Shown piece after piece: positions 1,134 to 28,065 of a DNA stretch of 64,000 nt (the first letter of the stretch is position 1; every line of letters starts with the position of its first letter). Made by a program: the position numbers and the translations under genes. The notes under the pieces are model-generated. The model did no database searches. It was not told the origin of the DNA and saw only the letters and a list, made by a program, of their open reading frames with translations. Location of the stretch: assembly GCF_031432975.1 (NCBI RefSeq), contig NZ_CP133838.1, forward strand, positions 1,054,001 to 1,118,000, given 5' to 3'. The stretch is from Buttiauxella selenatireducens (GTDB taxonomy: Bacteria > Pseudomonadota > Gammaproteobacteria > Enterobacterales > Enterobacteriaceae).

Positions 1134-2207
1134 ATGAGTGAACATGGCGGGAACAGTGTCGAAGTCGCACAACAACTCAGTATTGCCCCAGAATCCCTGC
1201 TGGATTTCAGCGCAAATATCAATCCTCTGGGTTTATCAGAGCGCGTCAAATCGCTGATTACCTCTCATCTGGATGTTATTGAGCGCTATCCGGATATTGA
1301 ATATCGCCATCTTCATCAGGCGCTGGCAATGGCTAATCAGTGTGATGTTGAGCAGGTGATTGCTGGAAACGGCGCCACGGAGCTGATTTATGGCCTGGTG
1401 CGGGCGTTATCGCCACGTCGCGCAATGCTTCTGGTGCCCGGTTTTGCTGAATATCGCCGGGCACTGGTGCAGCATGGCTGCGAGGTGATTGAATATCGGT
1501 TAAATGAGGAGCAGGGCTTCCAGCCGGACAGACAACTCCTCGAAGCCGTTCGTCAACGAAGGCCCGACTGTCTATTTATTGCCACGCCGAATAACCCAAC
1601 AGGATTGATGCCTGAACCTCAGCTGTTAATCGAACTGGCGGAATTGTGTGAAACGCTCCAGATAGCGCTGATAGTGGATGAAGCTTTTATTGATTTTCTT
1701 CCCCATGGATCAAGCCTGGCCTTACGTTTGACGCACTCGCGTTATCTCTATCTGCTGCGTTCGCTGACCAAATTTTTTGCCATCCCAGGTCTTCGTCTGG
1801 GCTATTTGCTCAGTGGTAACAGGGCGAGAATCCGTCAGCTGAAAAATAACCGCGAGCCCTGGTCGGTCAATGCACTCTCGTCACTCGTCGGCCAGTACCT
1901 GCTCAATGATGACGATTACATTAATGTCAGCCATAAGTATATTGCCCGGCAGCGGGATTATTTATGGCAGGCCCTGAGCCAGTTTGCGTCGTTGCTGGTC
2001 TGGAAACCGACCGCCAACTACCTGTTTTTCAAATGCATCAAAAAAGATATTGATCTGAAAGCCGCGCTGTTAGCGCATCGTATTCTGATTCGCCACTGTG
2101 AAAATTATCCCGGTCTTGATAGCCGTTACTATCGGGTGGCAGTGCGTACGGAAGATGAAAACAGGACGTTGATTCAGGCGTTAACCCAGATATTAACGCG
2201 TGACTGA
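1134..2207 (+). CDS. cobD: threonine-phosphate decarboxylase
   Basis: A PLP enzyme that decarboxylates L-threonine O-3-phosphate to (R)-1-amino-2-propanol phosphate, the linker that CbiB attaches to the corrin ring. The 357-residue protein is a class I/II aminotransferase fold: DFSANINPLG near residue 24, the PLP aspartate in DEAFIDF at 182-188, and the Schiff-base lysine K213 in SLTKFFAIPGLRLGY. A GAGG Shine-Dalgarno precedes the start. It works with PduX (threonine kinase), encoded convergently just downstream. Confidence 0.93.
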   Translation: MSEHGGNSVEVAQQLSIAPESLLDFSANINPLGLSERVKSLITSHLDVIERYPDIEYRHLHQALAMANQCDVEQVIAGNGATELIYGLVRALSPRRAMLLVPGFAEYRRALVQHGCEVIEYRLNEEQGFQPDRQLLEAVRQRRPDCLFIATPNNPTGLMPEPQLLIELAELCETLQIALIVDEAFIDFLPHGSSLALRLTHSRYLYLLRSLTKFFAIPGLRLGYLLSGNRARIRQLKNNREPWSVNALSSLVGQYLLNDDDYINVSHKYIARQRDYLWQALSQFASLLVWKPTANYLFFKCIKKDIDLKAALLAHRILIRHCENYPGLDSRYYRVAVRTEDENRTLIQALTQILTRD

Positions 2208-2254: not shown

Positions 2255-2896
2255 ATGGACTACTTTCCACTATTTTGTGATCTGAAAGGCAAGCGCTGTT
2301 TGATTGTTGGCGGCGGCCAGGTTGCCACGCATAAAGCCCGTGGCCTGTTGCTGGCGGGGGCGACGTTGCGCCTGGTCGCACCGTCGATCACTTCTGAGCT
2401 CGAGCTGCTTTGTGCAGAACACGATATCGAGTGGCTACCCGTTCCATTGATAAAACAGCATCTTACGGGGTGTTGGCTGGCGATCGCGGCAACCAATGAC
2501 GCTGCGGCTAATCGCCTGGTCAGTCAATGGGCAACGGCTGAACAGAAGTTCTGTAATTGTGTAGATGACCCTTCGTGCGCATCATTTATTACCCCTGCCA
2601 TTATCGATTGCTCTCCGGTGATCATTGCCGTGAGTTGTGGGGGGCATGCGCCGGTTTACAGCAAAATCCTCAAACAACATCTGTCTGAGCAACTTCCTGC
2701 TGGTATGCGTGAGATGGTGTTACTGGCGGGCGTGTTGCGGGAGCGGGTAAATCAATCTTGTGATAGCCGCGAGAGAAAACGGGCATTCTGGACGATGTTT
2801 TTTCATCATGCGCCTCTGCGGCAAGCCGTGTCAGAGAACAATACTGATGAAATTCACCAACAGGTGGAGAGCCTTTTCCAGAACGCTCTTTTTTAA
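2255..2896 (+). CDS. stand-alone precorrin-2 dehydrogenase (CysG N-terminal-like)
   Basis: It matches the N-terminal half of CysG, which oxidises precorrin-2 to sirohydrochlorin with NAD and can insert metal. The dinucleotide-binding loop is LIVGGGQVATHKAR near residue 16, and the catalytic aspartate (CysG D104) is kept in NCVDDP at 101-106. The residue equivalent to the phosphorylated Ser128 of Salmonella CysG is Cys (VSCGG). The 213-residue length is that of the module alone. The start aligns with CysG Met1, but no Shine-Dalgarno is visible. It ends 6 bases from the convergent pduX stop. With CbiK as cobaltochelatase it may serve the cobalamin branch. Confidence 0.88.
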   Translation: MDYFPLFCDLKGKRCLIVGGGQVATHKARGLLLAGATLRLVAPSITSELELLCAEHDIEWLPVPLIKQHLTGCWLAIAATNDAAANRLVSQWATAEQKFCNCVDDPSCASFITPAIIDCSPVIIAVSCGGHAPVYSKILKQHLSEQLPAGMREMVLLAGVLRERVNQSCDSRERKRAFWTMFFHHAPLRQAVSENNTDEIHQQVESLFQNALF

Positions 2897-2902
2897 CCGT
2901 CG

Positions 2903-3769
2903 CTACTGTAAGGTCGCGCCGCCCTCGACCATCTTCAGCAAGTGATGCACCGGCCAGTGTTGGTTTAAGCGTGATTCCGTCAATAACCCTTTCACAAGGT
3001 CAACGTCATGTTTATTGCGGTCCAGCAGTAACCCCACCACGCTTCCACTGTGAGCAACATTGATACCGTAGAGATCGCACTTTTCTACCAGCGATAACAA
3101 AGACTTAAACTCGGGTTTGGGCAGAATATTCTGGCTCGCCTGCGCGCTAAGCGTTGCGCCTTCGCCCATCAGTCGCGGATTGTTCTGCTCACAGGCTTGC
3201 TGAATTTTTCCCCAGGCGCTCTCCAGTGCGGTGACATGCCTTTGCAGCAAGGTGTTTCTCTCCATGCGGTGATAATCTGCCGTACGCAACGTTAATGGGC
3301 TTTCTAGCACCAGCAGATCCAGCTCCGGTTGCGGGTGACAGGCAATCCGCGTCGTCCCTTTGTTATGATCGAACAACGACAGGCTGCGAAAAATAGTGCT
3401 GTCGGTGGGTTCGAGCGAAACACACAACGCCGCCAGCGCCTCTTCACCGAGTTCATGACCTAAATAATGGGCGGTGGCGAGCGCCGTGGCGGCAATATCC
3501 GCGGTGCTACTGGCCATCCCTTTGGCTACCGGAATAGTAGAGTGACGCTCAATACGAATTTCACGGCTCAGATCTGCCGGATAGTGCCAGTGAGAAAGAA
3601 GCTGTTTCACCATGGCGCGTGAGAGAGGAAGTTCATTCTCCAGCGGGGCACCTGCGGTGACTTCAACGGTGCTGTACCAGTCCACAGGACAAGACACCAG
3701 CTTTTCGCTGCCGAGGATCCACCCCTGGATAAGTTCGCCGCAGGATGCGGGGCATTGGGCTATTGCCAC
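2903..3769 (-). CDS. pduX: L-threonine kinase (GHMP kinase family)
   Basis: PduX phosphorylates L-threonine to threonine phosphate, the CobD substrate. The protein begins VAIAQCPASCGELIQGW, close to Salmonella PduX, and has the GHMP ATP loop IPVAKGMASSTADIAATA. I choose the GTG at 3767-3769 because GAGG lies about 8 bases upstream and it fits the family N-terminus (289 residues). The frame stays open to a TTG at 3820, which would add 17 residues encoded mostly by a palindromic repeat. It is convergent with the dehydrogenase gene and divergent from the cbi operon. The gene is better known from pdu clusters; here it sits with cobalamin genes. Confidence 0.92.
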   Translation of the reverse strand: MAIAQCPASCGELIQGWILGSEKLVSCPVDWYSTVEVTAGAPLENELPLSRAMVKQLLSHWHYPADLSREIRIERHSTIPVAKGMASSTADIAATALATAHYLGHELGEEALAALCVSLEPTDSTIFRSLSLFDHNKGTTRIACHPQPELDLLVLESPLTLRTADYHRMERNTLLQRHVTALESAWGKIQQACEQNNPRLMGEGATLSAQASQNILPKPEFKSLLSLVEKCDLYGINVAHSGSVVGLLLDRNKHDVDLVKGLLTESRLNQHWPVHHLLKMVEGGATLQ

Positions 3770-3784
3770 GTTCACCACCTCGTT

Positions 3785-3840
3785 TATCCCCTCATACTTC
3801 GAGTTGTCGCCTTGCTGCAACTCGAAGTATGAAGGGGATA
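3785..3840. repeat. short ERIC-derived palindrome at the pduX 5' end
   Basis: A 56-bp near-perfect inverted repeat: arms built on TCATACTTCGAGTTG and its complement, with TATCCCC and GGGGATA ends. The ends resemble those of the 127-bp ERIC at 58611-58737 with the centre missing. It lies 16 bp upstream of the chosen pduX start and would form a hairpin in its leader. Confidence 0.75.
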
Positions 3841-4311: not shown

Positions 4312-4359
4312 TGTATGAAGACGCGTGAATTAATTCCATGCGCGACTAACTGTAATGCT

Positions 4360-4512
4360 AACTGATATACCACCTTGTGTGGTTGGGAAGGGGGTTTAAA
4401 TCCCCCGCAGCCCCCGCTGCTGTGATGCTGACGAACCCGTAATGCCACTGATCGCAAGATTGGGAAGGGCGGGTGAGAGTGACGCTAAGCCAGAAGACCA
4501 GTCTGTTAGCCA
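4360..4512 (+). promoter_or_regulatory. cobalamin riboswitch ahead of cbiA
   Basis: The leader has the conserved parts of an adenosylcobalamin riboswitch: a G-rich hairpin around GGGAAGGGGG at 4384-4393, the GCAGCCCCCGCTGC core near 4406, a second GGGAAGGGCGGG block near 4462, and a B12 box GCTAAGCCAGAAGACC ending near 4499. A further GGTCGAAAGACC hairpin near 4556 lies between it and the cbiA start at 4617. In this family, ligand binding in the leader lowers expression of the downstream operon. The exact edges are approximate. Confidence 0.9.
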
Positions 4513-4616
4513 AAAACAACAACTTCGGTGGGAAGTGGGTTGCTCAGATGCGTCTGGTCGAAAGACCGGGTAACCGCACTTCCTGACAGCCCGACCACCC
4601 TGAACAGGATTGGGGT

Positions 4617-5996
4617 ATGGCAGTCAGGAAACGGACATTCATTCTTGCAGGCACCTCCAGCGGATGTGGAAAAACCACGGTCACGCTGGGTTTGCTTAGC
4701 CTCCTCAAACAGCGCGGATTGCGCGTTCAGCCTTGCAAAGTGGGGCCTGACTACCTTGATACCGGCTGGCATCGCGCCGTGACCGGCACATGTTCCCTGA
4801 ATCTTGACCGCTTTATGTTGCCCGTCTTCACGTTAAATGCCCTGTTTGCTGAGCGTATGCAGCATGCGGATATTGCGGTGATTGAAGGCGTGATGGGGCT
4901 GTTCGATGGCTATGGCACCGATCCTGATTATTGCAGCACGGCGGGGATGGCAAAGCAGCTTAACTGCCCGGTCATTCTGCTGGTCGACGGAAAAGCCGTC
5001 TCGACCTCGATTGCCGCGACCGTCATGGGGTTTCAACGTTTTGATCCTGCGTTGCCGCTGGCGGGTGTGATAGTCAACCGCGTCAATAGCGAAAGCCATT
5101 ATCAGCTACTGAAAAGCGCGATTGAGCGCTACTGCAACGTGCCTGTATTGGGCTACGTTCCCCGCGTGGAAGGGGTTTCGCTACCGGAAAGGCATCTGGG
5201 GCTGGTGACCGCACGCGAGTCCGTCGTCAATTCGCAACCATGGACAGACTTCGCCAACGTGCTGGAAAACACGCTGGATATTGACCAACTGCTGGCACTG
5301 AGCGTCTGCGATGCGCTCCCTTCAGGAGCGTGGCCCGAATTACCGTCTGCAGATTGCGGCAAAGGATTAACGCTGGCACTGGCGGATGACGAGGCGTTTA
5401 ACTTCTACTACGCCGACAATATTGCCCTTCTTGAACGCGCAGGCGTGCGCATCGTGCGCTTCAGCCCCCTGCATGACAGCCAGTTGCCGGAGTGCCAGAT
5501 GATCTGGTTCGGTGGCGGCTACCCGGAACTCTACGCGCAAAAGTTGTCCGCAAATCATGCCATGCGCGCGCAAATCCTTGCCGCCCATCAACAGGGCGTG
5601 GCGATTTATGGCGAATGCGGCGGGTTGATGTACCTCGGAAGCTCACTACAAGACAGCCACGGCGTGACTTATCCGATGGTCGACGCCATCCCCGGCCATA
5701 GCGCGATGGGCAAAAAGCTAACCCGCTTTGGCTACTGCGAAAGCCGCGCGCTGGTGCCAACGTTGCTGGCCGACGCAGGCGAAACGCTGCGGGGCCACGA
5801 GTTTCATTATTCAGATTTTACGCCGGAAACTCCGGCGGTCATGGCGAGCAGTAAAACCCGCGACGGCGCGGTTCTTCAGACGTGGTCGGGCGGCTGGCAG
5901 GTGGGGAATACCTTCGCCAGCTACCTGCATATTCATTTTGCCCAGCGTCCCACTCTGCTTAATCGCTGGATCTGCGCGGCCAGGAGGGCGAGATGA
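4617..5996 (+). CDS. cbiA: cobyrinate a,c-diamide synthase
   Basis: CbiA uses ATP and glutamine to amidate the a and c carboxylates of cobyrinic acid. The 459-residue protein has a P-loop AGTSSGCGKTT at 11-21 and a class I glutamine amidotransferase domain with nucleophile C334 in GECGGLMYLG. It closely follows Salmonella CbiA along its full length. It is the first gene of the operon behind the riboswitch, and its stop overlaps the cbiB start as ATGA. Confidence 0.96.
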   Translation: MAVRKRTFILAGTSSGCGKTTVTLGLLSLLKQRGLRVQPCKVGPDYLDTGWHRAVTGTCSLNLDRFMLPVFTLNALFAERMQHADIAVIEGVMGLFDGYGTDPDYCSTAGMAKQLNCPVILLVDGKAVSTSIAATVMGFQRFDPALPLAGVIVNRVNSESHYQLLKSAIERYCNVPVLGYVPRVEGVSLPERHLGLVTARESVVNSQPWTDFANVLENTLDIDQLLALSVCDALPSGAWPELPSADCGKGLTLALADDEAFNFYYADNIALLERAGVRIVRFSPLHDSQLPECQMIWFGGGYPELYAQKLSANHAMRAQILAAHQQGVAIYGECGGLMYLGSSLQDSHGVTYPMVDAIPGHSAMGKKLTRFGYCESRALVPTLLADAGETLRGHEFHYSDFTPETPAVMASSKTRDGAVLQTWSGGWQVGNTFASYLHIHFAQRPTLLNRWICAARRAR

Positions 5997-6952
5997 CTCT
6001 ACTGGCCTGGGCGGTGGCGTGGATTCTGGATTATCTGCTGGGCGATCCTCACCACTGGCCGCACCCGGTGCGCTGGATTGGCGCGCTGATTACCTTTGTA
6101 CAACGACTCGTCAGACGTTGCTGTCGCAGCGAAACCGCCTTGTCCATCGGAGGCGGTTTGATGTGGCTAAGCGTCGTAGGGATCACGTGGGGCGTGGCGT
6201 GGGGGCTGCTGCATATTGCCAATGCCATTCACCCAGCTTTCGGATGGATTGTCGAAGTCTGGATGATTTTCACGGTGCTTGCCGCCCGCAGTCTGGATGA
6301 CGCCGCGCGTGACGTAGAGCAGCCGTTACGTGCGGGCAACCTCGAAGAAAGCCGCAAAAAACTCGCCTGGATAGTCGGGCGGGACACTTCTCAACTGCAC
6401 ATGCCGCAAATCAATCGTGCCGTGGTGGAAACCGTCGCGGAGAACACCGTGGATGGCGTGATTGCGCCGCTGTTTTTTCTGCTGCTGGGCGGAGCGCCAC
6501 TGGCGATGGCCTATAAAGCCGTCAATACGCTGGATTCGATGGTGGGCTACAAACACGAAAAATACCGCGCGATTGGCAAAGTCAGTGCGCGAATGGACGA
6601 CCTTGCCAACTTCATTCCGGCGCGTATCAGCTGGTTGTTACTGAGCCTTGCCGCGTGGCTGTGCCGAAAAAATGCCGTGGACGCGCTGCGTATTGGTTGG
6701 CGCGATCGCTATAACCACAGCAGCCCCAACTGCGGTTGGTCTGAGGCCACGGTGGCGGGGGCGTTAGGTATTCGTCTGGGCGGGCCGAATGAATACTTTG
6801 GGCAACGGATTGACAAACCCTGGCTCGGGGACGCTTCCCGCGAGATAGCCGTTGACGATATTTCAGGAACGATTCAATTGATGTGGGTGGCTTCCACGTT
6901 GGCGCTGATGCTGTTTGCGCTGGTGCGGATTATCTGGTCTGGGGCTTTCTGA
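5993..6952 (+). CDS. cbiB: adenosylcobinamide-phosphate synthase (membrane)
   Basis: CbiB joins aminopropanol phosphate (made by PduX and CobD) to adenosylcobyric acid. The 319-residue protein starts LLAWAVAWILDYLLGDPHHW, the family N-terminus, and has several hydrophobic segments plus the conserved NTVDGVIAPLFF and NTLDSMVGYK motifs. It overlaps cbiA by 4 bases. Confidence 0.95.
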   Translation: MTLLAWAVAWILDYLLGDPHHWPHPVRWIGALITFVQRLVRRCCRSETALSIGGGLMWLSVVGITWGVAWGLLHIANAIHPAFGWIVEVWMIFTVLAARSLDDAARDVEQPLRAGNLEESRKKLAWIVGRDTSQLHMPQINRAVVETVAENTVDGVIAPLFFLLLGGAPLAMAYKAVNTLDSMVGYKHEKYRAIGKVSARMDDLANFIPARISWLLLSLAAWLCRKNAVDALRIGWRDRYNHSSPNCGWSEATVAGALGIRLGGPNEYFGQRIDKPWLGDASREIAVDDISGTIQLMWVASTLALMLFALVRIIWSGAF

Positions 6953-6962
6953 GGGCAATATG

Positions 6963-7592
6963 ATGAATTACATACAACAACCACAAGCGATTGAAACCAA
7001 GAGTTTCGAGATTATCGGCGAGATCGTGCGGGAAACCCGGCCGGAATACCGTTTTGCCAGTGAGCTGCATGAAGCGGTGATTAAAAGGGTCATCCATACC
7101 ACGGCAGATTTCGACTGGCTGGATATCTTATGGTTTTCCGAGCATGCGCTCGACAGCCTGTGCGCCGCGTTGCGCAGTGGCTGCACGGTTTATACGGACA
7201 CCACCATGGCGCTCTCCGGGATCAATAAATCGCTGTTGGCCAGTTTCGGTGGCGAGTGCCGTTGCTATATCAGCGATCCCCACGTTGTGCGCCAGGCGAA
7301 AGAGCATGGGATAACGCGTTCCATGGCGGCGGTGGATCTGGCGCTGGAAGACGAAGGCGAGAAGGTCTTTGTTTTTGGTAACGCGCCAACCGCGCTGTTC
7401 CGCTTGCTGGAAAAGGACACCCCGGTTCGCGGCGTGGTTGGCGTTCCGGTGGGGTTCGTCGGTGCGGAGGAATCAAAAGAGGCGCTCACGACCAGCCATC
7501 TGCCAGCCATTGCGGCGCGCGGGCGCAAGGGGGGAAGCAACGTCGCGGCCGCCATCGTCAACGCCATGCTGTACCACATGCGGGAGGCGTGA
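6963..7592 (+). CDS. cbiC: cobalt-precorrin-8 methylmutase
   Basis: CbiC moves the C11 methyl to C12, giving cobyrinic acid. The protein has the family motifs HTTADFDW and [12 protein letters not shown], and the GVPVGFVGA and [11 protein letters not shown] segments. An earlier in-frame start at 6915 lies inside cbiB. The second of two tandem ATGs, at 6963, best matches the Salmonella start MHYIQQPQ and has GAGG about 8 bases upstream. It would be 209 residues. Confidence 0.95.
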
Positions 7593-8728
7593 TGAGCGAC
7601 TCCTTCGATGCGCCGGTATGGCATAACGGCAAAGCGTTACGCAAAGGATATACCACCGGCTCCTGCGCGACGGCGGCAGCAAAAGTTGCGGCGTTGATGG
7701 TCCTGCGCCAGCACCTGATTCATCAGGTTTCTATTACTACGCCTTCCGGCGTGGCGCTGTGTCTGAATGTTGAATCGCCGCAAATCGAAGGGCAGCAAGC
7801 CCTTGCCGCCATCCGTAAAGACGGGGGTGATGATATTGACGCCACGCACGGCATGCTGATTTTCGCCCGAGTCGCGCTGAATGATTCTGGTCAGATAACC
7901 CTTTGCGGTGGCGAAGGTGTAGGAAAAGTCACGCGCAAAGGTATCGGCCTGCCGGTCGGAAGCGCTGCTATCAACCGGACACCGCGCCAGACGATCGAGT
8001 CAGCCGTACGTGAGGTGATTGGGCCATCGCGTGGCGCGAGTGTGGAGATCTTCGCCCCCGAAGGGGAGATTCGGGCACAAAAAACCTATAACGCTCGGCT
8101 GGGCGTGATCGGTGGCATCTCTATCATCGGCACCACGGGCATTGTGACCCCGATGTCAGAAGAGAGCTGGAAGCGTTCGCTGGCGCTGGAACTGGAGTTG
8201 AAGCGCGCAGCTGGGCTGGATCGCATCGTGATGGTGCCAGGGAATCATGGCGAACGTTTTGTACGCGAGCGGCTTGGGGTGGATAGCCAGTCCATCGTCA
8301 CCATGAGCAACTTTGTGGGTTACATGATTTCGGAAGCGGTGCGCCTGGGATTCCGCCACATCGTGTTGGTCGGGCATCCGGGGAAACTTATCAAGGTCGC
8401 CGCCGGGATATTTCATACCCATAGCCATATTGCCGACGCCCGCATGGAAACGCTGGTCGCGCACCTGGCCCTGCTTCACGCGCCTTACGAATTACTCACC
8501 GCCGTCAGCCAATGCGACACCACCGAGGCGGCGCAAGAGCACATCGACGCCTGGGGTTTTCAGCACATCTATAACCACCTTGCCGAACGCATTTGTCTGC
8601 GTGTTGCCCAGACGTTGCGCTTTACCAACCATCCGCCAGTTTGTGATGCCGTGATGTTCTCTTTTGATAATCAACTGCTGGGCAGCAATCGCCCGTTGCA
8701 GAACATCGCGGAGGAATTGCAATGCTGA
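7592..8728 (+). CDS. cbiD: cobalt-precorrin-5B C1-methyltransferase
   Basis: CbiD methylates C1 of the cobalt corrin after CbiG has opened the delta-lactone. It has the typical [17 protein letters not shown] start, [11 protein letters not shown], and the GNHGERF and [12 protein letters not shown] motifs. The ATG at 7592 overlaps the cbiC stop by 1 base and has GGAGG upstream; the GTG one codon earlier is less likely. The gene is intact at 378 residues, although its presumed substrate supplier cbiG is missing from the operon. Confidence 0.95.
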
Positions 8729-9327
8729 CGGTTGTGGGGATGGGGCCTGCGGGCCTGCATCTGATGACGCCCGTTGCAAGCCGGGCTGTCGCTGAAGCTG
8801 AGTTTCTGGTCGGCGGGAAGCGCCATCTGGCGCAGTTCCCTGATTTCTGCGGTGAAACGCGTGAACTTGACGCCGATATCCCCGGTTTACTCGACTGGAT
8901 TGAACGCCGGTTATCGCACCGTGTGGTGGTGTTGGCTTCCGGCGATCCGCTGTTTTATGGCATTGGCACCCGGTTGGTCGCGCATTTCGGTATTGAGCGC
9001 GTGCAGGTGATCCCTGGGATCAGTGCGGTGCAATACCTGTGCGCCAAAACCGGCATTGATATGAATGATATTTGGTTGACCAGCAGCCACGGCAGAACTG
9101 TCGATTTCGATGCGCTGATTCGCCAGCACAAAGTGGCGATGGTGACAGATAAATGGTGTGGCCCACGAGAAATAGCCGCTGAGCTTAACGCCCGAGGGGC
9201 CGGGCAACGCTGGCTGGTGATCGGTGAAAACCTGGCGATGGAAAATGAACGCATCCACCGGCTCCGCGCCTGTGATGTCCGAGCTGAGTACGACATGAAT
9301 GTCCTGGTGATCCTCAATGAAAGATGA
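8722..9327 (+). CDS. cbiE: cobalt-precorrin-7 C5-methyltransferase
   Basis: A SAM-dependent tetrapyrrole methylase that acts with CbiT on precorrin-6B-type intermediates. It shows [13 protein letters not shown] at the N-terminus and [12 protein letters not shown] in the middle, the two family signatures. It is 201 residues, with starts and stops overlapping cbiD and cbiT. Confidence 0.94.
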
Positions 9328-9886
9328 GCTGTTTTTACGCGGGGCAAAAGTCCCGATGACGAAGGAAGGGGTGCGGACGTTGGCACTTGCCAGGCTGGAT
9401 CTCCATCGGGCCAGCCATTTTATCGATGTTGGCGCAGGCACAGGCAGTGTCTCAATTGAAGCCGCGCTCAGCCACCCTGAACTTCGGGTGACGGCAATCG
9501 AACGAAACCCCGCGGCGCTGACACTGCTGGCGGAAAATCGCGGCCATTTTGATTGCCGAAATATTGAGATTATCGCCGGTGAAGCCCCGCTGGCGCTGGG
9601 GGAAAAAGCCGACGCTATTTTTATCGGCGGCAGCGGCGGCAACCTGACGCAGTTAATTGACTGGGCATTGAACCAGCTCTGCCCGGAGGGGCGTCTGGTG
9701 CTGACGTTTATCCTTCAGGAGAACCTTACCGCCGCACTTCATCATCTCTCTTCCCGCGGCATTCACGATTTTGATTGCCTTCAGTTGCAGATTTCCGAGT
9801 TAACCACACTGGGGAACGGGCATTACTTCAAACCCAATAACCCCACTTTTATGATTTCCTGCCAGAAGGAAAAAAATCATGGCTAA
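9317..9886 (+). CDS. cbiT: cobalt-precorrin-6B C15-methyltransferase (decarboxylating)
   Basis: A Rossmann methyltransferase that methylates C15 and decarboxylates the C12 side chain. The SAM-binding motif [14 protein letters not shown] lies near residue 37, followed by the acidic loop AIERNPAAL and the [10 protein letters not shown] segment. It has 189 residues and overlaps both cbiE and cbiF, as in Salmonella. Confidence 0.95.
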
Positions 9887-10652
9887 GACTTTTGATCCCC
9901 ATTGCGTCTGGTTTGTTGGCGCGGGGCCCGGTGACCGTGAACTGATTACGCTCAAAGGCTACCGTTTGCTGCAAGAAGCGCAGGTGGTGATTTACGCCGG
10001 GTCGCTCATCAACACTGAGCTGCTGGAATATTGCTCGAAAGAAACAGAGTGCCACGACAGCGCAGAGCTGCACCTGACACAAATTATCGACCTGATGGAA
10101 GAAGGGATTAAAGCCGGTAAAACGGTCGTCCGCCTGCAAACCGGCGATGTGTCGCTCTACGGATCAGTTCGCGAACAAGGCGAAGTGCTGGCGAGCCGTG
10201 GTATCCCGTGGCAAGTGGTGCCGGGCGTCAGTGCTTTCCTGGGCGCGGCGGCGGAGCTGGGCGTGGAGTACACGGTGCCTGAAGTTTCGCAAAGCCTGAT
10301 CATCACGCGTCTGGAAGGGCGCACGCCAGTGCCGCCGCTTGAGCAGATTGAATTGTTCGCCAGCCACCAGACATCCATGGCGATTTACCTCTCCGTTCAA
10401 CGTATCCACCGCGTCGCCGAAAGGCTGATTGAGGGCGGATATCCCGCGTCGACGCCGGTCGCGGTTGTCTATAAGGCGACCTGGCCGGAAAGCATGACCG
10501 TGCGCGGTACCCTGGCGGATATTGGCGACAAAGTCCGTGACGCGGGCATTCGCAAAACCGCGCTGATTCTGGTCGGCGCGTTCCTCGGCGAAGAGTTCCA
10601 TTATTCGCGGCTTTATGCAGCGGATTTCAGCCATGAATACCGTAAAGCCTGA
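9879..10652 (+). CDS. cbiF: cobalt-precorrin-4 C11-methyltransferase
   Basis: CbiF methylates C11 of cobalt-precorrin-4 to form cobalt-precorrin-5A, the substrate that CbiG would act on next. Signatures are [16 protein letters not shown] at the N-terminus and [12 protein letters not shown] near residue 86. It has 257 residues and ends [11 protein letters not shown] as in Salmonella. The remains of cbiG start inside its last 20 bases in another frame. Confidence 0.95.
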
Positions 10653-10679
10653 GTTAATCACACTGGGAGTTTCACACTG

Positions 10680-10680
<1 letters not shown>
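10633..10680 (+). pseudogene. cbiG: cbiG deletion scar (15-codon mini-ORF)
   Basis: In the other cob operons I know, cbiG (about 350 codons, cobalt-precorrin-5A hydrolase) lies between cbiF and cbiH. Here 27 bases separate them. An ATG inside the cbiF end opens a 15-residue frame, [15 protein letters not shown]. From memory, Salmonella CbiG begins MNTVKPE and ends TLGVSH. So nearly the whole gene has been removed in frame, keeping its start, its stop and the TGATG coupling to cbiH. The comparison with CbiG is from memory. The tiny frame itself is plain in the sequence. Confidence 0.85.
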
Positions 10681-11401
<721 letters not shown>

Positions 11402-11405
<4 letters not shown>

Positions 11406-12190
11406 AATTCGGCGATGTGTTGGTCGTCGGGGGCACGAGCGATGCCCGAGCGCTATGCCGACAACTGGATGACGCAGGGGTTGCGTACACCCTGTCGGTC
11501 GCGACACCGACGGGCGAACACCTCGCGGGAGACATCGCCGGAGCGGTGCGCTGTGGGCGCATGGATTTTCAACAAATGACCGCCTGGTTGCGCAAACAGG
11601 GCACGAGCTGGGTGATTGATGCTTCACACCCGTACGCGGAAGTTGTCAGCGAAAACCTGGTGCGCGCCTGCCGGGAAACCGGCGTGCTGTTAAGCCGATA
11701 CCAGCGGCCAGAGCAATGTGCCGAAGTGGAACATCCACTGCTTTATTGCGTTAAGAGCATCGATGAGGCCTGCCAGGTTGCTGCGACCTTGGGTGAGCGC
11801 ATTTTGCTGACGACAGGGAGCAAAGACCTCGCCGCCTGGCGCGCAGGGTTGGCGGGAAAAACGCTGATGGCCCGTGTGCTGCCGGTCGCGGAAGTGCTGC
11901 AACAGTGCGCTGACCTGGGATTTGGCGTGAATCAAATCTTCGCGCTGTGCGGCCCCTTCAGTGCCGAATTCAATGCCGCCTTTTACCAACAGTGTCGGGC
12001 AGATCTGGTAATCACGAAAGCATCAGGCGCGGAAGGCGGGTTCCTCGAGAAAGTTCAACCCTGCCTGGAAGCAGGGATCCCCTGCATTGTCATCATGCGC
12101 CCGGCACCTCTGGTGCAGGGTTCTGAATTACTGGAAAGCCAGACGGCATTTTCACAACGTTTGTCACGCTGGCTGAAACAAAAGGATTAA
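11402..12190 (+). CDS. cbiJ: cobalt-precorrin-6A reductase
   Basis: CbiJ reduces the ring of precorrin-6A with a nicotinamide cofactor. The 262-residue protein has the N-terminal VVGGTSDARALCRQL loop, DASHPYAEVVSEN, LLTTGSKDLAAW and ITKASGAEGG, all family hallmarks. It starts with GTG overlapping the cbiH stop. Confidence 0.94.
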
Positions 12191-12193
12191 ACG

Positions 12194-12988
12194 ATGAAAA
12201 AAGCGCTTCTTGTCGTGAGTTTTGGCACCAGCTACCACGACACCGGTGAAAAAAATATTGTGGCGTGTGAACGCGATCTGGCTGCCAGCGTTCCCGATCG
12301 CGATCTTTTTCGTGCTTACACCTCAGGGATGATCATCCGAAAGTTAAAACAGCGTGATGGCATCTCTGTCGATACGCCGATGCAGGCGCTACGAAAGCTT
12401 GCCGATCTTGGGTATCAGGACGTGGCGATCCAGTCGTTGCACATCATCAACGGCGATGAGTATGAAAAGATCGTCCATGAAGTGCAGATCATGCGGCCCT
12501 TGTTTTCACGGCTGGTGATTGGTGCGCCTCTGCTCAGCAGTTTCGATGATTATTCGACGCTCATGGCGGCACTGCGCCAGCAAATGCCCGCACTGGGTGA
12601 ACGGGAAGAAGTGGTGTTTATGGGCCACGGCGCCAGCCATCACGCGTTCGCCGCTTATGCCTGTCTTGATCACATGATGAAAGCGCAACAGATCCTCGCG
12701 AGAGTGGGCGCGGTAGAAAGTTACCCGGAGGTGAGCCAGCTGATTGACAACATGCTTGCCGAAGGCGTTCGCGCCGTACACCTGATGCCGTTAATGCTGG
12801 TGGCTGGCGATCACGCCATCAATGACATGGCTTCTGACGAAGCCGATTCGTGGAAATCTCAATTCTGCGCCGCAGGGATCCCAGCTACACCGTGGTTGAA
12901 GGGGTTGGGTGAGAACCCGGCGGTGCGTGCGATGTTTGTCGCACATTTGCAGCAGGCAATTAAAAGCGCAATGAAGGAGGCAGCATGA
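12194..12988 (+). CDS. cbiK: sirohydrochlorin cobaltochelatase
   Basis: CbiK inserts cobalt into sirohydrochlorin, the committed step of the anaerobic route. The residues known to hold the metal in Salmonella CbiK are present: E89 in GDEY, H145 in MGHGASHH and H207 in AGDHAIND. Length is 264, and it lacks the signal peptide seen in periplasmic relatives. The dehydrogenase at 2255-2896 makes its substrate. Confidence 0.96.
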   Translation: MKKALLVVSFGTSYHDTGEKNIVACERDLAASVPDRDLFRAYTSGMIIRKLKQRDGISVDTPMQALRKLADLGYQDVAIQSLHIINGDEYEKIVHEVQIMRPLFSRLVIGAPLLSSFDDYSTLMAALRQQMPALGEREEVVFMGHGASHHAFAAYACLDHMMKAQQILARVGAVESYPEVSQLIDNMLAEGVRAVHLMPLMLVAGDHAINDMASDEADSWKSQFCAAGIPATPWLKGLGENPAVRAMFVAHLQQAIKSAMKEAA

Positions 12989-13701
12989 CGGGAAAACTCT
13001 ATGCAATCAGCACCGGACCTGGGGCAAGCGACTTAATCACCGTGCGGGCATCACGCGTACTGGCCACGCTGGATGTGGTGTATGCCCCAGCCGGGCGTAA
13101 AGGCGGCGATAGCCTGGCCCTTTCCATCGTCCGTGAATATCTGGGTGAGCACACGCAGGTCTGTTGCCGTCATTTCCCAATGAGCGCTGACAGTGCTGAA
13201 AAAGAGGAAGTGTGGGATGCGGTTGCCGCCGAACTGCAAAGCGATGTCGAGTCAGGAAAACGGGTCGGCTTTATAACCCTCGGCGATGCCATGTTGTTCA
13301 GCACCTGGGTCTTTTTGCTCAAGCGGTTACAGAATCCTGACTGGCTGGAAATCATCCCCGGCGTGACCTCTTTTTCCGCGATTGCTTCACGTTCTGCCAC
13401 GCCGCTGGCGATGGAGACGCAATCGCTGGCCGTGATTTCCTGTACTGCGCCAGAAGCCGAGATTCGTCGGGCGCTGGAGCAGCATGACAGCCTGGTATTA
13501 ATGAAAGTGTATGGCCGCTTTGCGCGCATTAAATGTCTTCTGCAAGAAGCGAATTTGCTGGATTGCGCCTTGATGATGGCGGAAGCCACGCTACCGGGGG
13601 AGCAGTGCTGGCGGGAACTGAGCGCCATAAATGACGAGAACCCACTGCCGTACTTCTCAACCATTCTGATTAATAAACAGTGGGGCAGAGAAAGAAAATG
13701 A
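12985..13701 (+). CDS. cbiL: cobalt-factor II / precorrin-2 C20-methyltransferase
   Basis: CbiL methylates C20 of cobalt-factor II. It shows [18 protein letters not shown] at the N-terminus and [12 protein letters not shown] as the second methylase motif, with 238 residues. AGGAGG stands upstream of the ATG, which overlaps the cbiK stop (ATGA). Confidence 0.95.
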
Positions 13702-14435
13702 GTCTCGAAAAACAGCTTAAACAGCTTTCGTTCAGCGGCCTGGCAGCGGCGCTATTGTTGATGGTGGTGCCAGAGCAGGCGTTTGCGATGCACATTATGG
13801 AAGGGTTTTTACCGCCGATGTGGGCGCTGGCCTGGTGGCTGCTCTTTTTACCTTGTCTGTGGTACGGCCTGGTGCGTTTACGCCAGATTGTAGCCGAGGA
13901 CAGCCATCAGAAAGTTCTCCTGGCGCTGTGCGGCGCATTTGTTTTCGTCTTGTCGGCACTGAAAATTCCGTCGGTCACCGGGAGTTGCTCGCATCCCACG
14001 GGCGTTGGGTTGGCGGTGATTTTGTTCGGGCCGGGCGTGGTGGCGATCCTCGGCGCGGTGGTGCTGTTGTTCCAGTCTCTGCTATTGGCTCACGGCGGTT
14101 TGACGACGCTTGGCGCTAACGGAATATCGATGGCGGTGATGGGGCCGGTTGTGGGTTATCTGGTGTGGAAACTGGCTTGCCGTGCAGGGTTGCGTCGTGA
14201 TGTCGGCGTCTTCTTATGCGCCATGCTGGCGGACTTGACCACCTATTTTGTGACGTCGGTACAGTTGGGGGTCGCGTTCCCGGATTCGGAGGCAGGCATG
14301 ATGGGATCGACTCTCAAGTTTATGAGTATTTTCTGTTTGACGCAGATCCCGATCGCGATAGCTGAAGGGCTACTGACCGTATTGATCTACGACCAAATAA
14401 CGAAACGTCGGTTGATAACGGTAGAGGGGCACTAA
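13698..14435 (+). CDS. cbiM: cobalt ECF transporter substrate-binding membrane subunit
   Basis: CbiM is the S-component of the cobalt energy-coupling-factor importer. After a signal-like N-terminus it has the metal-binding MHIMEGFLP segment and several transmembrane helices, with [16 protein letters not shown] as a conserved loop. An in-frame start at 13680 exists, but the ATG at 13698 overlaps the cbiL stop as ATGA and matches the Salmonella start. Confidence 0.95.
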
Positions 14436-14437
14436 CG

Positions 14438-14719
14438 ATGAAAAAGACAATTATTTTGCTCGGGATGGTCATTGCGCTGGTGATACTGCCCTTCTTCGTT
14501 GACCACAATGGCGAGTATGGCGGTTCCGACGGTGAAGCAGAAAGCCAGATTCAAATCATCGCCCCGAATTACACACCGTGGTTCCAGCCGCTGTATGAAC
14601 CCGCAAGCGGCGAAATAGAAAGCTTACTGTTTACCTTGCAGGGCGCTTTGGGCACGGCGGTGATTTTCTACATTTTCGGTTACTGGAAAGGGAGACAACG
14701 TGCAACTGACCGGGCTTGA
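14438..14719 (+). CDS. cbiN: cobalt ECF transporter auxiliary subunit
   Basis: A 93-residue protein with two transmembrane segments, one at each end, enclosing the periplasmic YGGSDGEAESQI and PNYTPWFQPLYEPASGEIES segments typical of CbiN. It assists CbiM in cobalt uptake. It has GAGGGG upstream and overlaps cbiQ. Confidence 0.95.
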   Translation: MKKTIILLGMVIALVILPFFVDHNGEYGGSDGEAESQIQIIAPNYTPWFQPLYEPASGEIESLLFTLQGALGTAVIFYIFGYWKGRQRATDRA

Positions 14720-15383
14720 CCGAATCAGCTATCAGAGCCGCTGGTATCACGTTTCACCGGTCCGCAAGTTCTGGCTGTGGCTGGCGATGATGGTGCTGGC
14801 GTTTGTCCTGCCGCCGTCTGGCCAGGCTTGTCTGCTGGCGCTGGTGGCGGCGCTAACCTGCTGGTTACTGCGCATTTCGCTCAGGCGTTGGTGCCGTTGG
14901 ATGGCGCTGCCTTTTGGTTTTTTGCTGGTGGGGGTTGTCACTATTCTTTTCAGTATCAGCCACCAACCTGGGGCGCTGCTATGGAGCGTGCCGGTGGGCA
15001 GCGTCTGGGTTGGTATCAGTCATGACGGCTTGCTGATGGCAAATGCCACCTTCTGGCGCAGCCTGGCGGCGCTGGCGTCAACCTTCTGGCTGGTACTGAA
15101 TCTGCCTTTTCCGCAATTGATTGTGTTGCTGCAACGGGCGCGGGTGCCGCGTTTAATGACCGAACAAATTCTACTGACATGGCGCTTTATTTTTATTTTG
15201 CTGGAGGAGGCGCTGGCTATCCACCGCGCTCAGACGTTGCGCTTTGGTTATCGCCGTCTGCCGCAGGGATACCGATCGTTTGCGATGCTGGTCGGACTGC
15301 TTCTCACCCGCGTGATGATGCGTTATCAGCAAATGGTGACGGTGCTGGATATCAAATTGTATCAGGGTGATTTTCACCTGTAA
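14700..15383 (+). CDS. cbiQ: cobalt ECF transporter transmembrane coupling subunit
   Basis: CbiQ is the T-component that links the ATPase CbiO to CbiM. The 227-residue protein has about five hydrophobic helices and the conserved coupling segment RAQTLRFGY in the C-terminal half. It starts with GTG (GGGAG upstream), overlapping cbiN by 20 bases. Confidence 0.94.
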   Translation: MQLTGLDRISYQSRWYHVSPVRKFWLWLAMMVLAFVLPPSGQACLLALVAALTCWLLRISLRRWCRWMALPFGFLLVGVVTILFSISHQPGALLWSVPVGSVWVGISHDGLLMANATFWRSLAALASTFWLVLNLPFPQLIVLLQRARVPRLMTEQILLTWRFIFILLEEALAIHRAQTLRFGYRRLPQGYRSFAMLVGLLLTRVMMRYQQMVTVLDIKLYQGDFHL

Positions 15384-15391
15384 GGAGCGTC

Positions 15392-16207
15392 ATGCTAGCC
15401 ACTGAATCTCTCTGGTTCCGCTACCAGGATGAGCCGGTACTCAAAGGTGTTTCGCTGGATTTCTCACGCCATTCGGTCACCGGGTTAGTGGGGGCGAACG
15501 GTTGCGGAAAATCGACATTATTTATGAACCTGAGCGGCATTCTGAAGCCGCAAAAAGGGGCGGTGCTGTGGCAGGGAAAACCGCTGGATTACAGCAAACG
15601 CGGTTTACTGGCGTTGCGACAGCAGGTGACCACCGTTTTCCAGGACCCGGAACAGCAGATTTTCTACACCGATATCGACAGCGACATTGCGTTCGCGCTG
15701 CGCAATCTCGGGATAGATGAAGCAGAGATTGCGCGGCGGGTAGAGGAAGCGTTGACGCTGGTCGACGCGCACGCCTTCCGTCATCAGCCGATTCAGTGCC
15801 TGAGCCATGGGCAGAAGAAACGTGTCGCCATTGCGGGCGCATTGGTACTCCAGGCGAAATATCTGTTACTGGACGAGCCGACGGCGGGGCTGGACCCGTC
15901 AGGGCGCATGCAAATGATTGAAATCATTCGGCGCATCGTCGCTCAGGGCAACCATGTGGTGATCTCCAGCCACGACATCGATTTGATTTACGAGGTGAGC
16001 GACGCGGTGTATGTGCTCAACCACGGTGAGGTTTTGGCGGAAGGGACGCCGGAAGCGGTCTTTTCCCGTCATGCCTGTATTCAGCAAGCGGGGTTAACGC
16101 AGCCATGGTTGGTCAAGTTGCACCTCGAGCTGGGATTGCCGCTTTGTAAAAATGAGGCGGATTTTTTTGCCCGGATGCGGGCGACATACATTCAGGAGGC
16201 GTCATGA
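15392..16207 (+). CDS. cbiO: cobalt ECF transporter ATPase
   Basis: The ATP-binding A-component of the cobalt importer, 271 residues. Walker A is GANGCGKST, the Q-loop TVFQDPEQQ, the signature [12 protein letters not shown], and Walker [16 protein letters not shown] precedes the ATG, and its stop overlaps cbiP as ATGA. Confidence 0.95.
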
Positions 16208-17727
16208 AGCGGGCAATCATGCTACAGGGAACGGCATCTGATGTCGGGAAAAGTGTTCTGGCTGCGGGGCTTTGCCGTATTTTCCATCAGGATGGATGGC
16301 GAACCGCACCGTTTAAATCGCAGAACATGGCGCTGAATTCCGGCATCACGCCGGAAGGTAAAGAGATGGGGCGGGCGCAAATATTCCAGGCCGAAGCGGC
16401 GGGAGTTGTGCCGGATGTGCGAATGAATCCGGTGTTGCTGAAGCCGACCAGCGATAGCAAGGCGCAGGTGGTACTGATGGGGCAGGTGGCCTGCAACATG
16501 GATGCCGTCAGTTACCACGAATACAAACCGCGTCTGCGCGAACAGGTGACGGCGGCTTATAACAGCCTTGCGCAGGAATATGACGTGCTGGTGCTGGAGG
16601 GGGCGGGTAGCCCGGCGGAGATCAATTTGCGCGACCGCGATATCGTCAATATGGGGATGGCGGAAATGGCAGGATGCCCGGTTATCCTGGTGGCGGATAT
16701 CGATCGTGGCGGCGTTTTCGCCTCTATTTACGGCACGCTGGCGCTGTTGCAGGAGCACGAACGCTGGCGCGTAAAAGGCGTCATCATTAATAAATTCCGG
16801 GGTGACGTGGCGTTGCTTAACCCTGGGATTGAACAGATTGAGTCGTTAACGGGAGTCCCGGTGTTGGGAGTGATGCCGTGGCTGGATGTCGATCTGGAAG
16901 ATGAAGACGGCGTGGCGCTCCAGCGGGGTAAATATTTGCGCACCGAAAAGCGCGATATCGACATTGCCGTGGTGCAATTGCCGCACATTTCCAACTTTAC
17001 GGATTTCAATGCGCTGGCGGCGCAACCGGATGTGCGGGTGCGATATGTTCGCCATCCCGAAGATCTGGACGGTGTGGACCTGGTTATCTTGCCGGGCAGC
17101 AAAAACACCCTTGGCGATCTGACCTGGATGCAGGAGCACGGGCTGGCCCAGAAAGTGCTGGAGTTACATCGATGCGGCGTGCCGATCATCGGCATTTGCG
17201 GCGGTTACCAGATGCTGGGCGATACCATTATCGACGAAGTGGAATCCGGGCTTGGCACATTACCGGGGCTGGGGTTGCTCAATACCGTGACCCAATTTGC
17301 CAGCAGCAAAACCACCACCCAGGTGACGGCTGAAATCGCCGCCTCATTGCCCGGTTGGCTGGCGCAGGCGTCGGGGATTGTGGTACGCGGCTATGAAATC
17401 CACATGGGGGAAACGCGTTTAACGACGGGTTGTCGTCCGGCATTGTCGCTGGAAAAAAACGGCGGGACGGTGGCTGACGGCGCGATCAGCGATGATGGGC
17501 TGGTTTTTGGTACTTATCTGCATGGATTATTCGACAGCAACGCCTTCACGCGGGCGGTGGTGGATGGTCTGCGGGCGAGGAAGGGATTAGCCGCGCTGAC
17601 CAATACCGTGGATTACGCGAGTTACAAAGCCCAACAGTTTGATCTTCTGGCCGCCGCCATGCGGCAAAACATTGATATAGAAAAAATTTATAACGTCATG
17701 CGTGAACACCAGGAGGCAACGGAATGA
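16204..17727 (+). CDS. cbiP: adenosylcobyric acid synthase
   Basis: CbiP amidates the b, d, e and g carboxylates of adenosylcobyrinate diamide, using ATP and glutamine. The 507-residue protein has the P-loop-like [19 protein letters not shown] at the N-terminus and a GATase domain with nucleophile C332 in [11 protein letters not shown]. It overlaps cbiO and cobU by 4 bases each. Confidence 0.96.
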
Positions 17728-18275
17728 TTCTGGTCACGGGGGGCGCACGCAGCGGAAAAAGCGCCCATACAGAACGGCTGGCCGCACAGCATTGTGACCA
17801 CGTTTTATACATTGCCACCTCTCTGGTTACGGATGACGAGATGGCATTGCGCGTGGCGAAACATCAAGCGCAACGGCCAGAACACTGGCGTACCTGGGAA
17901 GGATTCCGCGATGTGGGCGACGTGATTCGCCACCATTTGCAGCCTGGAGAAGGCGTGATGCTGGAGTGCGTCACCACCATGCTTTCAAACCTGCTTTATG
18001 AAGAAAGCGGAGGCGCTGACCCTGAAACGCTGGATTTTCCTGCGCTGGAAGCGTTCTTGTACCGTCAGATTGACGACCTCATCGCGGCATGCCAACAGTC
18101 TTCAGCCCCGATCTTCATTGTGACTAACGAACTGGGCATGAGCATCACGCCGTCTAATCGCCTCGCGCGCCATTTTGTGGATATCTCCGGCAGGGTAAAT
18201 CAAAAGTTGGCGCAGGCGGCAGAAGAGGTGTGGTGGGTGGTGTCGGGGATTGGGGTAAAAATCAAATGTCGCTAA
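17724..18275 (+). CDS. cobU: adenosylcobinamide kinase / guanylyltransferase
   Basis: CobU phosphorylates adenosylcobinamide and transfers GMP to it, activating it for nucleotide-loop assembly. P-loop GGARSGKS at residues 6-13, the VTNELGMSI and [18 protein letters not shown] motifs, and a VSGIGVKIK tail match Salmonella CobU. It has 183 residues. Confidence 0.95.
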
Positions 18276-19024
18276 ACATGCTGGTCGCGACGATGCGATT
18301 TATTACCCGCATTCCGGTGCCAGAAAAGTGGGCTGACGGCGTTGAGTTCAGCCAGTATGGCAAGGGCGTGCCGTATTTTCCCATCGTGGGCTGTATTGTC
18401 GGCGGGATTGCCGCGTTCGTTTCGCTGCTTGTCAGCCAGAGCGGGGGCGGCATTTATATTGGCGCGCTGACCTATGTTTTGGCACTCGCTTTTCTGACCG
18501 GCGGGTTTCATCTGGATGGGCTGGCGGACACCTGCGACGGTCTTTTTTCTGCCCGAAGCCGCGAGCGTATGCTGGAAATTATGCGCGACAGCCGCCTGGG
18601 AACGCACGGTGGCCTGGCGTTGGTCTTCTGTATCCTCATCAAAACATTCGCCGTTGTTTCGCTTTCGCATTATCCCGTTAAAGAACTCTTCGCTCTGTTG
18701 ATTTGCGCGCCGGTGGCCGCCAGGTCAGCCATGGTGCTGGCGATGTACAGACAGCGCTATGCCCGCGCCGGTGAAGGAATGGGCAATGTTTACATCGGCC
18801 AGATTAGCGGCTTTCAGGCAGCAACAACCTTGATTATTGGGGCGCTGCTGGTGGTGTTGCTCGCCGGATCGCGGGGGCTTATCGCCATTCTGGTGACCTG
18901 GTGTGTGGTTTATGGCGTCGCGTCATTTATCCGCCGTCAGTTAGGGGGGCAAACCGGTGACACATTGGGTGCCTCGGAAGAAGTGGGTGAACTGGTTTTT
19001 CTGCTGGCATTGCTGTGGGTTTGA
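18266..19024 (+). CDS. cobS: adenosylcobinamide-GDP ribazoletransferase (membrane)
   Basis: CobS joins adenosylcobinamide-GDP and alpha-ribazole (or its phosphate) in the membrane. The family motif GGFHLDGLADTCDGLFSAR and the C-terminal LGGQTGDTLGA are present, with about six hydrophobic segments. I choose the ATG at 18266, overlapping the cobU end by 10 bases, giving [19 protein letters not shown] (252 residues). A start at 18230 is possible but too long. Confidence 0.94.
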   Translation: MSLNMLVATMRFITRIPVPEKWADGVEFSQYGKGVPYFPIVGCIVGGIAAFVSLLVSQSGGGIYIGALTYVLALAFLTGGFHLDGLADTCDGLFSARSRERMLEIMRDSRLGTHGGLALVFCILIKTFAVVSLSHYPVKELFALLICAPVAARSAMVLAMYRQRYARAGEGMGNVYIGQISGFQAATTLIIGALLVVLLAGSRGLIAILVTWCVVYGVASFIRRQLGGQTGDTLGASEEVGELVFLLALLWV

Positions 19025-19055
19025 ATGACGCGTTAAACAATTGAGGATAATAACG

Positions 19056-20114
19056 GTGCAAACATTAACGGATTTAGTGGCAAGCATCAGGCCGCTTGAT
19101 AAACAAAAAATGGCGCAAGCGGCTGACTATATTGAAAGTTTAGCAAAGCCGGCAAAAAGTCTTGGACGCCTGGAAGTGATGGCCACTCAACTGGCGGGTA
19201 TGCGCGGTCTGAGCCATCTGGATAATCTGCAAAAAGAGATCATTGTGATGTGCGCCGATCACGGGGTGTTTGATGAAGGTGTGGCCGTCACACCAAAAGA
19301 GGTCACCTATATTCAGGCGCTGAATATGCAGAAGGGGCTGACCGGCGTTTGCGTGTTGGCTAAAAACAGCCAGACGTCTGTTTTGCCTGTAGATATCGGC
19401 ATTGATTGTGAACCCATCGCGGATATGGTGAGCCTTAAGCTGGCACGCGGTTGCGGCAATATTGCCCGGGGGCCAGCCATGTCGCGCCAGGACGCTGAAC
19501 AACTGCTGCTGGCCAGCGCGCAGTTGGTGAAAAAGCGTGCGGAGGAAGGCGTGTCTATCTTTGGTGTCGGTGAACTGGGTATTGCGAATACCACACCCGC
19601 TTCGGCGATGATCAGCGTCTTTAGCGATTGTGATCCTCACGATGTGGTGGGCATCGGGGCCAACCTCCCACTCGAAAGGTTACAGCACAAAGAGTCTATT
19701 GTGAGAAAGGCTGTCCACATTAATCGACCTGACGGCAATGATGCGGTGGATGTGTTGGCGAAAGTCGGCGGGTACGATTTGGTGGGGATGACGGGCGTCA
19801 TTCTTGGGGCGGGGGCGTGTGGCCTTCCGGTGGTGCTGGACGGTTTTCTCTCCTACGCGGCGGCTATCGCGGCTTGCCAGATTGCGCCTGAAGTCAAAAA
19901 CTATTGTATCCCTTCACATTTTTCGGCAGAAAAAGGCGCGCAACGCGCATTAGAACACCTTAACTTAAAGCCGTATCTCTATCTGGATTTACGCCTCGGA
20001 GAAGGGAGTGGCGCGGCTATTGCGATGTCGATATTAAGTGCGGCATGCGCCATGTATTGCCATATGGGATTGCAAGCGAACAGCGGTTTTAGCCTGCCGG
20101 GTTCACCGACGTAA
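19056..20114 (+). CDS. cobT: nicotinate-nucleotide:dimethylbenzimidazole phosphoribosyltransferase
   Basis: CobT makes alpha-ribazole phosphate from dimethylbenzimidazole and nicotinate mononucleotide. The 352-residue protein has VMCADHGVFDEGVA, GVGELGIANTTPA, and the catalytic glutamate near residue 316 in RLGEGSGAA. The GTG at 19056 is preferred: it has GAGG about 9 bases upstream and gives the family start MQTL. A TTG at 19041 is in frame. This is the last gene of the operon; cobC is not in the window. Confidence 0.94.
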   Translation: MQTLTDLVASIRPLDKQKMAQAADYIESLAKPAKSLGRLEVMATQLAGMRGLSHLDNLQKEIIVMCADHGVFDEGVAVTPKEVTYIQALNMQKGLTGVCVLAKNSQTSVLPVDIGIDCEPIADMVSLKLARGCGNIARGPAMSRQDAEQLLLASAQLVKKRAEEGVSIFGVGELGIANTTPASAMISVFSDCDPHDVVGIGANLPLERLQHKESIVRKAVHINRPDGNDAVDVLAKVGGYDLVGMTGVILGAGACGLPVVLDGFLSYAAAIAACQIAPEVKNYCIPSHFSAEKGAQRALEHLNLKPYLYLDLRLGEGSGAAIAMSILSAACAMYCHMGLQANSGFSLPGSPT

Positions 20115-27910: not shown

Positions 27911-27956
27911 TTTCTTATGCAGCGCCGCGATGATATCGGCAGTGTGCCAGTCTTGT
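27911..27956 (-). pseudogene. fragment of a Ner/Nlp-like regulator gene
   Basis: About 46 bases are nearly identical to 38417-38463, codons roughly 15-30 of the intact Ner-like gene. It has no start or end and abuts the EAL stop. It is a leftover of duplication or recombination. Confidence 0.75.
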
Positions 27957-27958
27957 TT

Positions 27959-28037: not shown

Positions 28038-28065
28038 ATTGATATATTGCGTTATTACGTGGAAT

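Follow-up and report, generated by a model that had tools for sequence, protein, structure and literature searches.

Cobalamin operons and glutamate-fermentation clusters

The anaerobic cobalamin operon of the Salmonella type has the gene order cbiABCDETF(G)HJKLMNQOP-cobUST behind a cobalamin riboswitch. The 64,000-nucleotide stretch of Buttiauxella selenatireducens DNA that was analysed here (the window; genome G000, 5.2 Mb in one contig) carries an operon with this same order, as in the relatives mapped, and a riboswitch in front, but it differs in that cbiG is represented by a 15-codon fusion and in that the genome has another such operon. CbiG is described in the consulted part of PMC7242693 as opening the ring-A lactone of cobalt-precorrin-5A, a step that follows CbiF and precedes CbiD.

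A second related system is the methylaspartate cluster of enterobacteria, whose genes, including SUMT, are named in the legend to Figure 5 of PMC4682846. The Buttiauxella island shares with it GlmS, MutL, GlmE, Mal, a DUF1446-like protein, a symporter, glutaminase, class I fumarase, a corrinoid adenosyltransferase, a LysR regulator and, by resemblance, SUMT, and differs in that an almost complete cob operon adjoins it, an operon that the passages drawn on from PMC4682846 do not mention. Precedent for partial, complementary gene sets comes from Geobacter lovleyi, where, according to the excerpt of PMC3403914 used here, plasmid pSZ77 carries 15 of 24 cobalamin genes, cbiG included, such that the cobalamin genes lie over two replicons with a few of them duplicated; in Buttiauxella, by contrast, cbiG is gone from the spare operon, and it is the main one that has the full set.

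This loss is not described in the titles and abstract openings of literature on cbiG with Buttiauxella or on Buttiauxella cobalamin, nor among the matches listed for duplicate cob operons, glutamate mutase with cob genes, or missing cbiG, which does not prove it unpublished; the consulted parts of PMC3521468 and PMC7680753 have no bearing on cbiG. The case is ordinary in kind and its pattern mildly novel, the point of interest being island-borne cob operons that are partly reduced yet conserved.

The cobalamin operon of the window

The riboswitch lies upstream of cbiA on the forward strand (4346..4520; RF00174, 94.4 bits against a gathering threshold of 31.5), and is followed on the same strand by cbiA, cbiB, cbiC, cbiD, cbiE and cbiT (4617..9886), an intact cbiF (9879..10652; NF012017, 502 bits, cut-off 408), an intact cbiH (10680..11405; NF012022, 520 bits, cut-off 425), and cbiJ, cbiK, cbiL, cbiM, cbiN, cbiQ, cbiO, cbiP, cobU, cobS and cobT (11402..20114), assigned from open reading frames and NCBIfam models. 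All 19 retained proteins from CbiA to CobT score above a curated NCBIfam cut-off for their enzyme (CbiE passes TIGR02467 only, falling 3 bits below NF004454), in keeping with the initial annotation, which had called the other genes intact. The operon thus holds 19 of 20 genes in standard order and with intact frames, cbiG being the one absent, and the list of open reading frames leaves no unexplained gene-sized gap between cbiA and cobT. Ahead of the riboswitch stand a uroporphyrinogen-III methyltransferase gene, SUMT-like by resemblance, that lies beside glutamate mutase genes in relatives (333..1106, forward), cobD for threonine-phosphate decarboxylase (1134..2207, forward; TIGR01140, 332.9 bits, cut-off 290.55), a gene that we take to encode a siroheme-synthase N-terminal-like protein (cysG-N; 2255..2896, forward), and, from the list of open reading frames and the island comparison, what is presumably a pduX-like kinase gene (2903..3820, reverse).

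The cbiF-cbiH junction and the remnant of cbiG

In the sequence of the window, an ATG...TGA frame of 15 codons on the forward strand (10633-10680) bridges cbiF and cbiH: the cbiF stop (10650-10652) falls inside it, and its own stop overlaps the cbiH ATG (10680) as TGATG, so that 27 nt separate the cbiF stop from that ATG. Frame, gap and coupling geometry all read as first annotated. The same interval is 1035 nt in relatives (13 loci and the main operon of Buttiauxella G009, among 23 stretches compared, six of which lay on the opposite strand and were excluded from the count, five giving -1043 and one -1112), 1034 nt in the main operon of G000, where cbiH is frameshifted, and 1089 nt in two main operons of genus g150. 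The deletion therefore amounts to 1035 - 27 = 1008 nt, or 336 codons in frame, against an earlier estimate of about 335.

The remnant consists of the first seven to eight codons of cbiG fused to the last seven; codon 8 (TTA) is an exact match to neither side, and the exact base of the joint is thus unplaced. At 15 codons, it lacks what defines CbiG, a protein of about 350 aa with CbiG_N and CbiG_C domains (PF01890, PF11760, NF004463). The ends that the initial annotation had given for CbiG, MNTVKPE and TLGVSH, are both exact in 6 of 13 loci, where cbiG starts MNTVKPES and ends TLGVSH; the others differ by at least one residue at one or both ends. Ten nucleotides 5' of the cbiH ATG lies GGGAG (10665..10669, forward), a putative ribosome-binding site kept from the 3' end of cbiG, with the same bases in relatives that have cbiG. 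Because the deletion falls between the cbiF overlap, which holds the front of the remnant, and GGGAG, which is held in its back, both neighbouring genes are unbroken. The loss of cbiG from the window is real and beyond chance: an in-frame loss from an otherwise complete operon is what the junction, the sister genomes and the relatives all support.

The intact cbiG of the main operon

The second cob operon of G000, here called the main operon, lies about 0.72 Mb from that of the window and holds an intact cbiG (C1:1787932-1788993), of which no second copy was found in the genome. PF01890 (CbiG_C) has a single match in G000 (C1:1788622-1788972), as does PF11760 (CbiG_N), and the main-operon CbiG is a protein of 353 aa that scores 628 bits against the cobalt-precorrin-5A hydrolase model NF004463 (cut-off 546). 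The 19 proteins common to the two operons are 54-85% identical, and a cobalamin riboswitch (RF00174) is found on both operons of G000 and on the G009 island. All 20 genes from cbiA to cobT are present in the main operons of G000, G060 and G009, the sole defect being a frameshift near codon 9 of cbiH in G000 (L001 ~1870-1910, C1 ~1789000). Since cbiH is intact in G060, which is of the same species, and also in G009, the frameshift may stem from a sequencing slip. Were it real, the island would hold the only intact cbiH of G000, and neither of the two operons would be complete by itself.

A single cbiG per genome is also the pattern in the family. In the sample of 392 genomes, 92 have a PF01890 match, and never more than one (that of G062 being a fragment). 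CbiD likewise occurs in 92 of the 392, and comparison of the two lists by eye shows these to be the same genomes. Two full-length CbiD proteins are found in G000, G261, G328 and G387, with one CbiG in all four; the several CbiD matches of G062 and G332 are fragments of one gene. PF11760 has a single match in 16 of 16 genomes, including all six with two cbiD-bearing operons, and none of the genomes searched has two cbiG matches. Of the ways out that had been offered for the missing step, supply of cbiG from elsewhere is the one that fits, as the genome-wide search that had been proposed returned the main-operon copy, which would act in trans. The gap in B12 synthesis implied by the window operon is not supported, and on gene content the pathway is probably unbroken; the removal of this apparent hole is a caution against inferring pathway gaps from one operon.

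Age of the loss and selection on the retained genes

A cbiG-less operon is found together with a main operon in 3 of 12 genomes of the genus (G000, G060 and G009), the other nine having the main type only. Comparison of the junction in these sister genomes, as had been suggested, shows the same deletion in G060 and G009. A pattern scan of genome contigs for a short cbiF-cbiH junction returned two stretches only, both with the deletion of the window, by a strict pattern that the g150 junction would escape; megablast against E. coli genomes gave no match. The remnant differs between G000 and G009 at 1 of 48 bases, as opposed to about 10% across the surrounding 1527 bases. The G009 island additionally lacks cbiJ and cysG-N. 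By eye, near-identical direct repeats of about 85-90 bases replace cysG-N between cobD and pduX in G009 (L037/L038). In G000, G060 and G009, cobD is found once more outside the island.

Between G000 and G009, simple Nei-Gojobori counts made with our own script give a dN/dS of 0.034-0.182 for 21 island genes (ratio of means 0.091) and of 0.019-0.142 for 20 genes of the main operon (ratio of means 0.063), so that the island value is somewhat the higher. Mean dS is 0.57 for the island cob genes (n=21) and 0.34-0.53 for nine upstream genes, as compared with a mean of 0.92 for the main operon and 0.28-0.84 for five of its neighbours. The aligned parts of the 21 genes of the G000 and G009 islands contain no stops or frame breaks. 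The retained island genes are under purifying selection, and the low dN/dS indicates that the genes of the operon have been conserved since cbiG was lost. A recent loss, one of the options first raised, does not agree with a deletion common to G060 and G009 and with a dS of about 0.57 for the retained genes between G000 and G009.

The glutamate-fermentation island and its origin

Upstream of the window, the island carries, in order, genes for a LysR regulator, a corrinoid adenosyltransferase, class I fumarase, glutaminase, a dicarboxylate symporter, a DUF1446/AtuA-like protein, methylaspartate ammonia-lyase, GlmE, MutL and GlmS. The three glutamate mutase genes thus adjoin that of methylaspartate ammonia-lyase, and the domains PF06368 (718 bits), PF13941 (451), PF02310 (50.5), MAAL_N and MAAL_C were found; by gene content, the island is the methylaspartate cluster known from enterobacteria, with glutamate fermentation as its predicted role. 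Of the 392 family genomes, 36 have GlmE, and none of these is among the five other members of the genus in that sample; glutamate mutase is linked to a second cob operon in G000, G060, G009 and genus g150. Seven further regions were compared. In G239, G167, G179 and G213, which have a single cob operon, the cluster directly adjoins a complete operon with cbiG; in G118, which also has the cluster, pduX and cbiA are about 19 kb apart. Glutamate mutase is absent from the G095 stretch, and the island of G160 is reduced.

A tree built from ten cbi proteins puts the Buttiauxella island with G118, G095, G032 and G019, apart from the main operon of the genus, a placement that points to acquisition of the island operon from outside the genus. 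In the cobT tree the island pairs with G118 (97/96), and G095 falls among main-operon types, which suggests that the tail of the operon has a different history in G095. The main-operon DNA tree of Buttiauxella does not resolve the sisterhood of G009 and G000/G060, so that the island may have entered by one gain or have been transferred between species.

A second case in genus g150

Another example of a second, glutamate-mutase-linked cob operon is found in 3 of 4 genomes of genus g150 (G261, G328 and G387), where it is partial: 12 genes are present, and cbiA, B, C, E, G, J, K and cobU are missing (in G387 as read from a stretch that breaks off within cobS). In the fourth, G160 (L103/L104), the cob genes of the island are reduced to SUMT, pduX, cbiP, cobS and cobT, so that of cbiA-cobT only the last three are kept. 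The cbiF-cbiH junction of g150 is unlike that of the window, and in the tree its second operon groups with G167, G179, G213 and G239. A common origin of both cbiG-less operons was rejected, as placing them in a single clade is 671 log units worse (p-AU 9.8e-08), in a tree test in which G239 was flagged as a long branch. The rejected clade and the differing junctions argue that cbiG was lost at least twice, independently, in two genera.

Across 14 island genes, the ratio of means of dN/dS between G261 and G328 is 0.058, so that a pathway too incomplete to be expected to work by itself is conserved all the same. All three main operons scanned (G000, G261 and G160) have a cobalamin riboswitch, whereas none was found at the G261 island or in the scanned stretch of the G328 island (L072). 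In G328, the aligned pduX of the island contains a stop. At the main locus of that genome pduX has one too, and the reading frames of cbiH and cbiJ are broken; this assembly may be error-rich. The aligned cbiM was also flagged for stops in the main operons of G387 and G160. The island CbiD of G261, G328 and G387 scores 255-263 bits as against about 320 for the main copies, and is thus the more diverged.

No preference for losing cbiG emerges from the two cases: as g150 lost 8 of 20 genes, a shared loss of cbiG has a P of 0.40, and a shared loss of cbiG and cbiJ together (P 0.147) is likewise within chance. Reciprocal loss between operons was also considered and rejected. The g150 main operons have no cobS between cobU and cobT (L070, L074/L079, L075/L076, L078), but a further cobS lies elsewhere in 4 of 4 g150 genomes; in Buttiauxella, the island cobD is duplicated elsewhere and the cbiH frameshift of the main operon is absent from G060.

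Why a cob operon without cbiG may be retained

The reading that we regard as very probable is that the window operon is redundant, is carried by the island as a supplement to dosage, and relies on the main operon for its CbiG. This second anaerobic cobalamin operon is part of a predicted glutamate-fermentation island with glutamate mutase, methylaspartate ammonia-lyase, a class I fumarase-like gene and a corrinoid adenosyltransferase. The 1008-nt deletion took 336 codons of cbiG from it in frame, but neither the end of cbiF nor the ribosome-binding-site-like sequence of cbiH. We take the enzymes around the CbiG step to be soluble, so that the CbiG of the main operon could serve intermediates of both enzyme sets in the same cytoplasm. 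B12 for glutamate mutase would be raised by additional copies of other steps, or by expression linked to the island, and the spare operon would probably add capacity when that enzyme demands coenzyme B12. It is tempting, though doubtful, to see in such second operons linked to glutamate mutase a recurrent 'satellite' type, in which selected partial pathways would boost slow steps and shed those, such as CbiG, that a single copy serves. If partial operons are real dosage supplements, they would mark the B12 steps that limit flux in nature, which matters for B12 production.

That the operon has no present function and is decaying gradually, with cbiG the first gene to go and the rest to follow, is unlikely, although a graded series leads from G000 and G060 without cbiG through G009 without cbiG, cbiJ and cysG-N to G261, G328 and G387, which lack 8 of 20 cbiA-cobT genes, and G160, which keeps 3, and although the riboswitch was not found at the g150 islands scanned. 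Neutral decay would give a dN/dS near 1 and frame breaks, and it is weakened by the intact frames of the G000 and G009 islands, by a dN/dS of at most 0.18 at a dS of about 0.57, and by the ratio for the 14 g150 genes; the losses of cbiJ and cysG-N in G009 and the larger ones in g150 could still reflect slow decay. Use of another enzyme for the delta-lactone step, or of a CbiG-independent corrinoid route, would suit purifying selection on an operon without this step if the operon were self-sufficient. It is nevertheless highly improbable, as 92 of 92 sampled genomes with CbiD also have a CbiG match, the list of open reading frames has no unexplained gene-sized gap within cbiA-cobT, and CbiG is described as the lactone-opening enzyme in the part of PMC7242693 consulted; the suggestion that another enzyme does the step found no evidence and is superfluous given the cbiG of the main operon. 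An error of assembly or sequencing at the cbiF-cbiH junction, which would have undone the loss itself, has next to no probability and is refuted, as G000, G060 and G009, each assembled separately, have the same deletion.

Compatible with a dosage supplement served by the main-operon CbiG is the further suggestion that the 15-codon remnant is kept as a translational coupler of cbiF and cbiH, as its ATG overlaps the end of cbiF, its TGATG overlaps the start of cbiH, and it is far less diverged between G000 and G009 than its surroundings. We hold this only tentatively, since overlap with cbiF constrains its first part and the ribosome-binding-site-like sequence its last, so that no peptide is needed to explain its conservation, and the g150 junction differs; retention of GGGAG before cbiH would account for the clean junction equally well.

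Elsewhere in the window

C4 antisense RNA genes lie at 27956-28043 and 38555-38642, and a tmRNA gene at 44629-44992, all on the reverse strand. C4 RNA belongs to P1/P4-like phages, and its presence here suggests satellite elements near the tmRNA gene.
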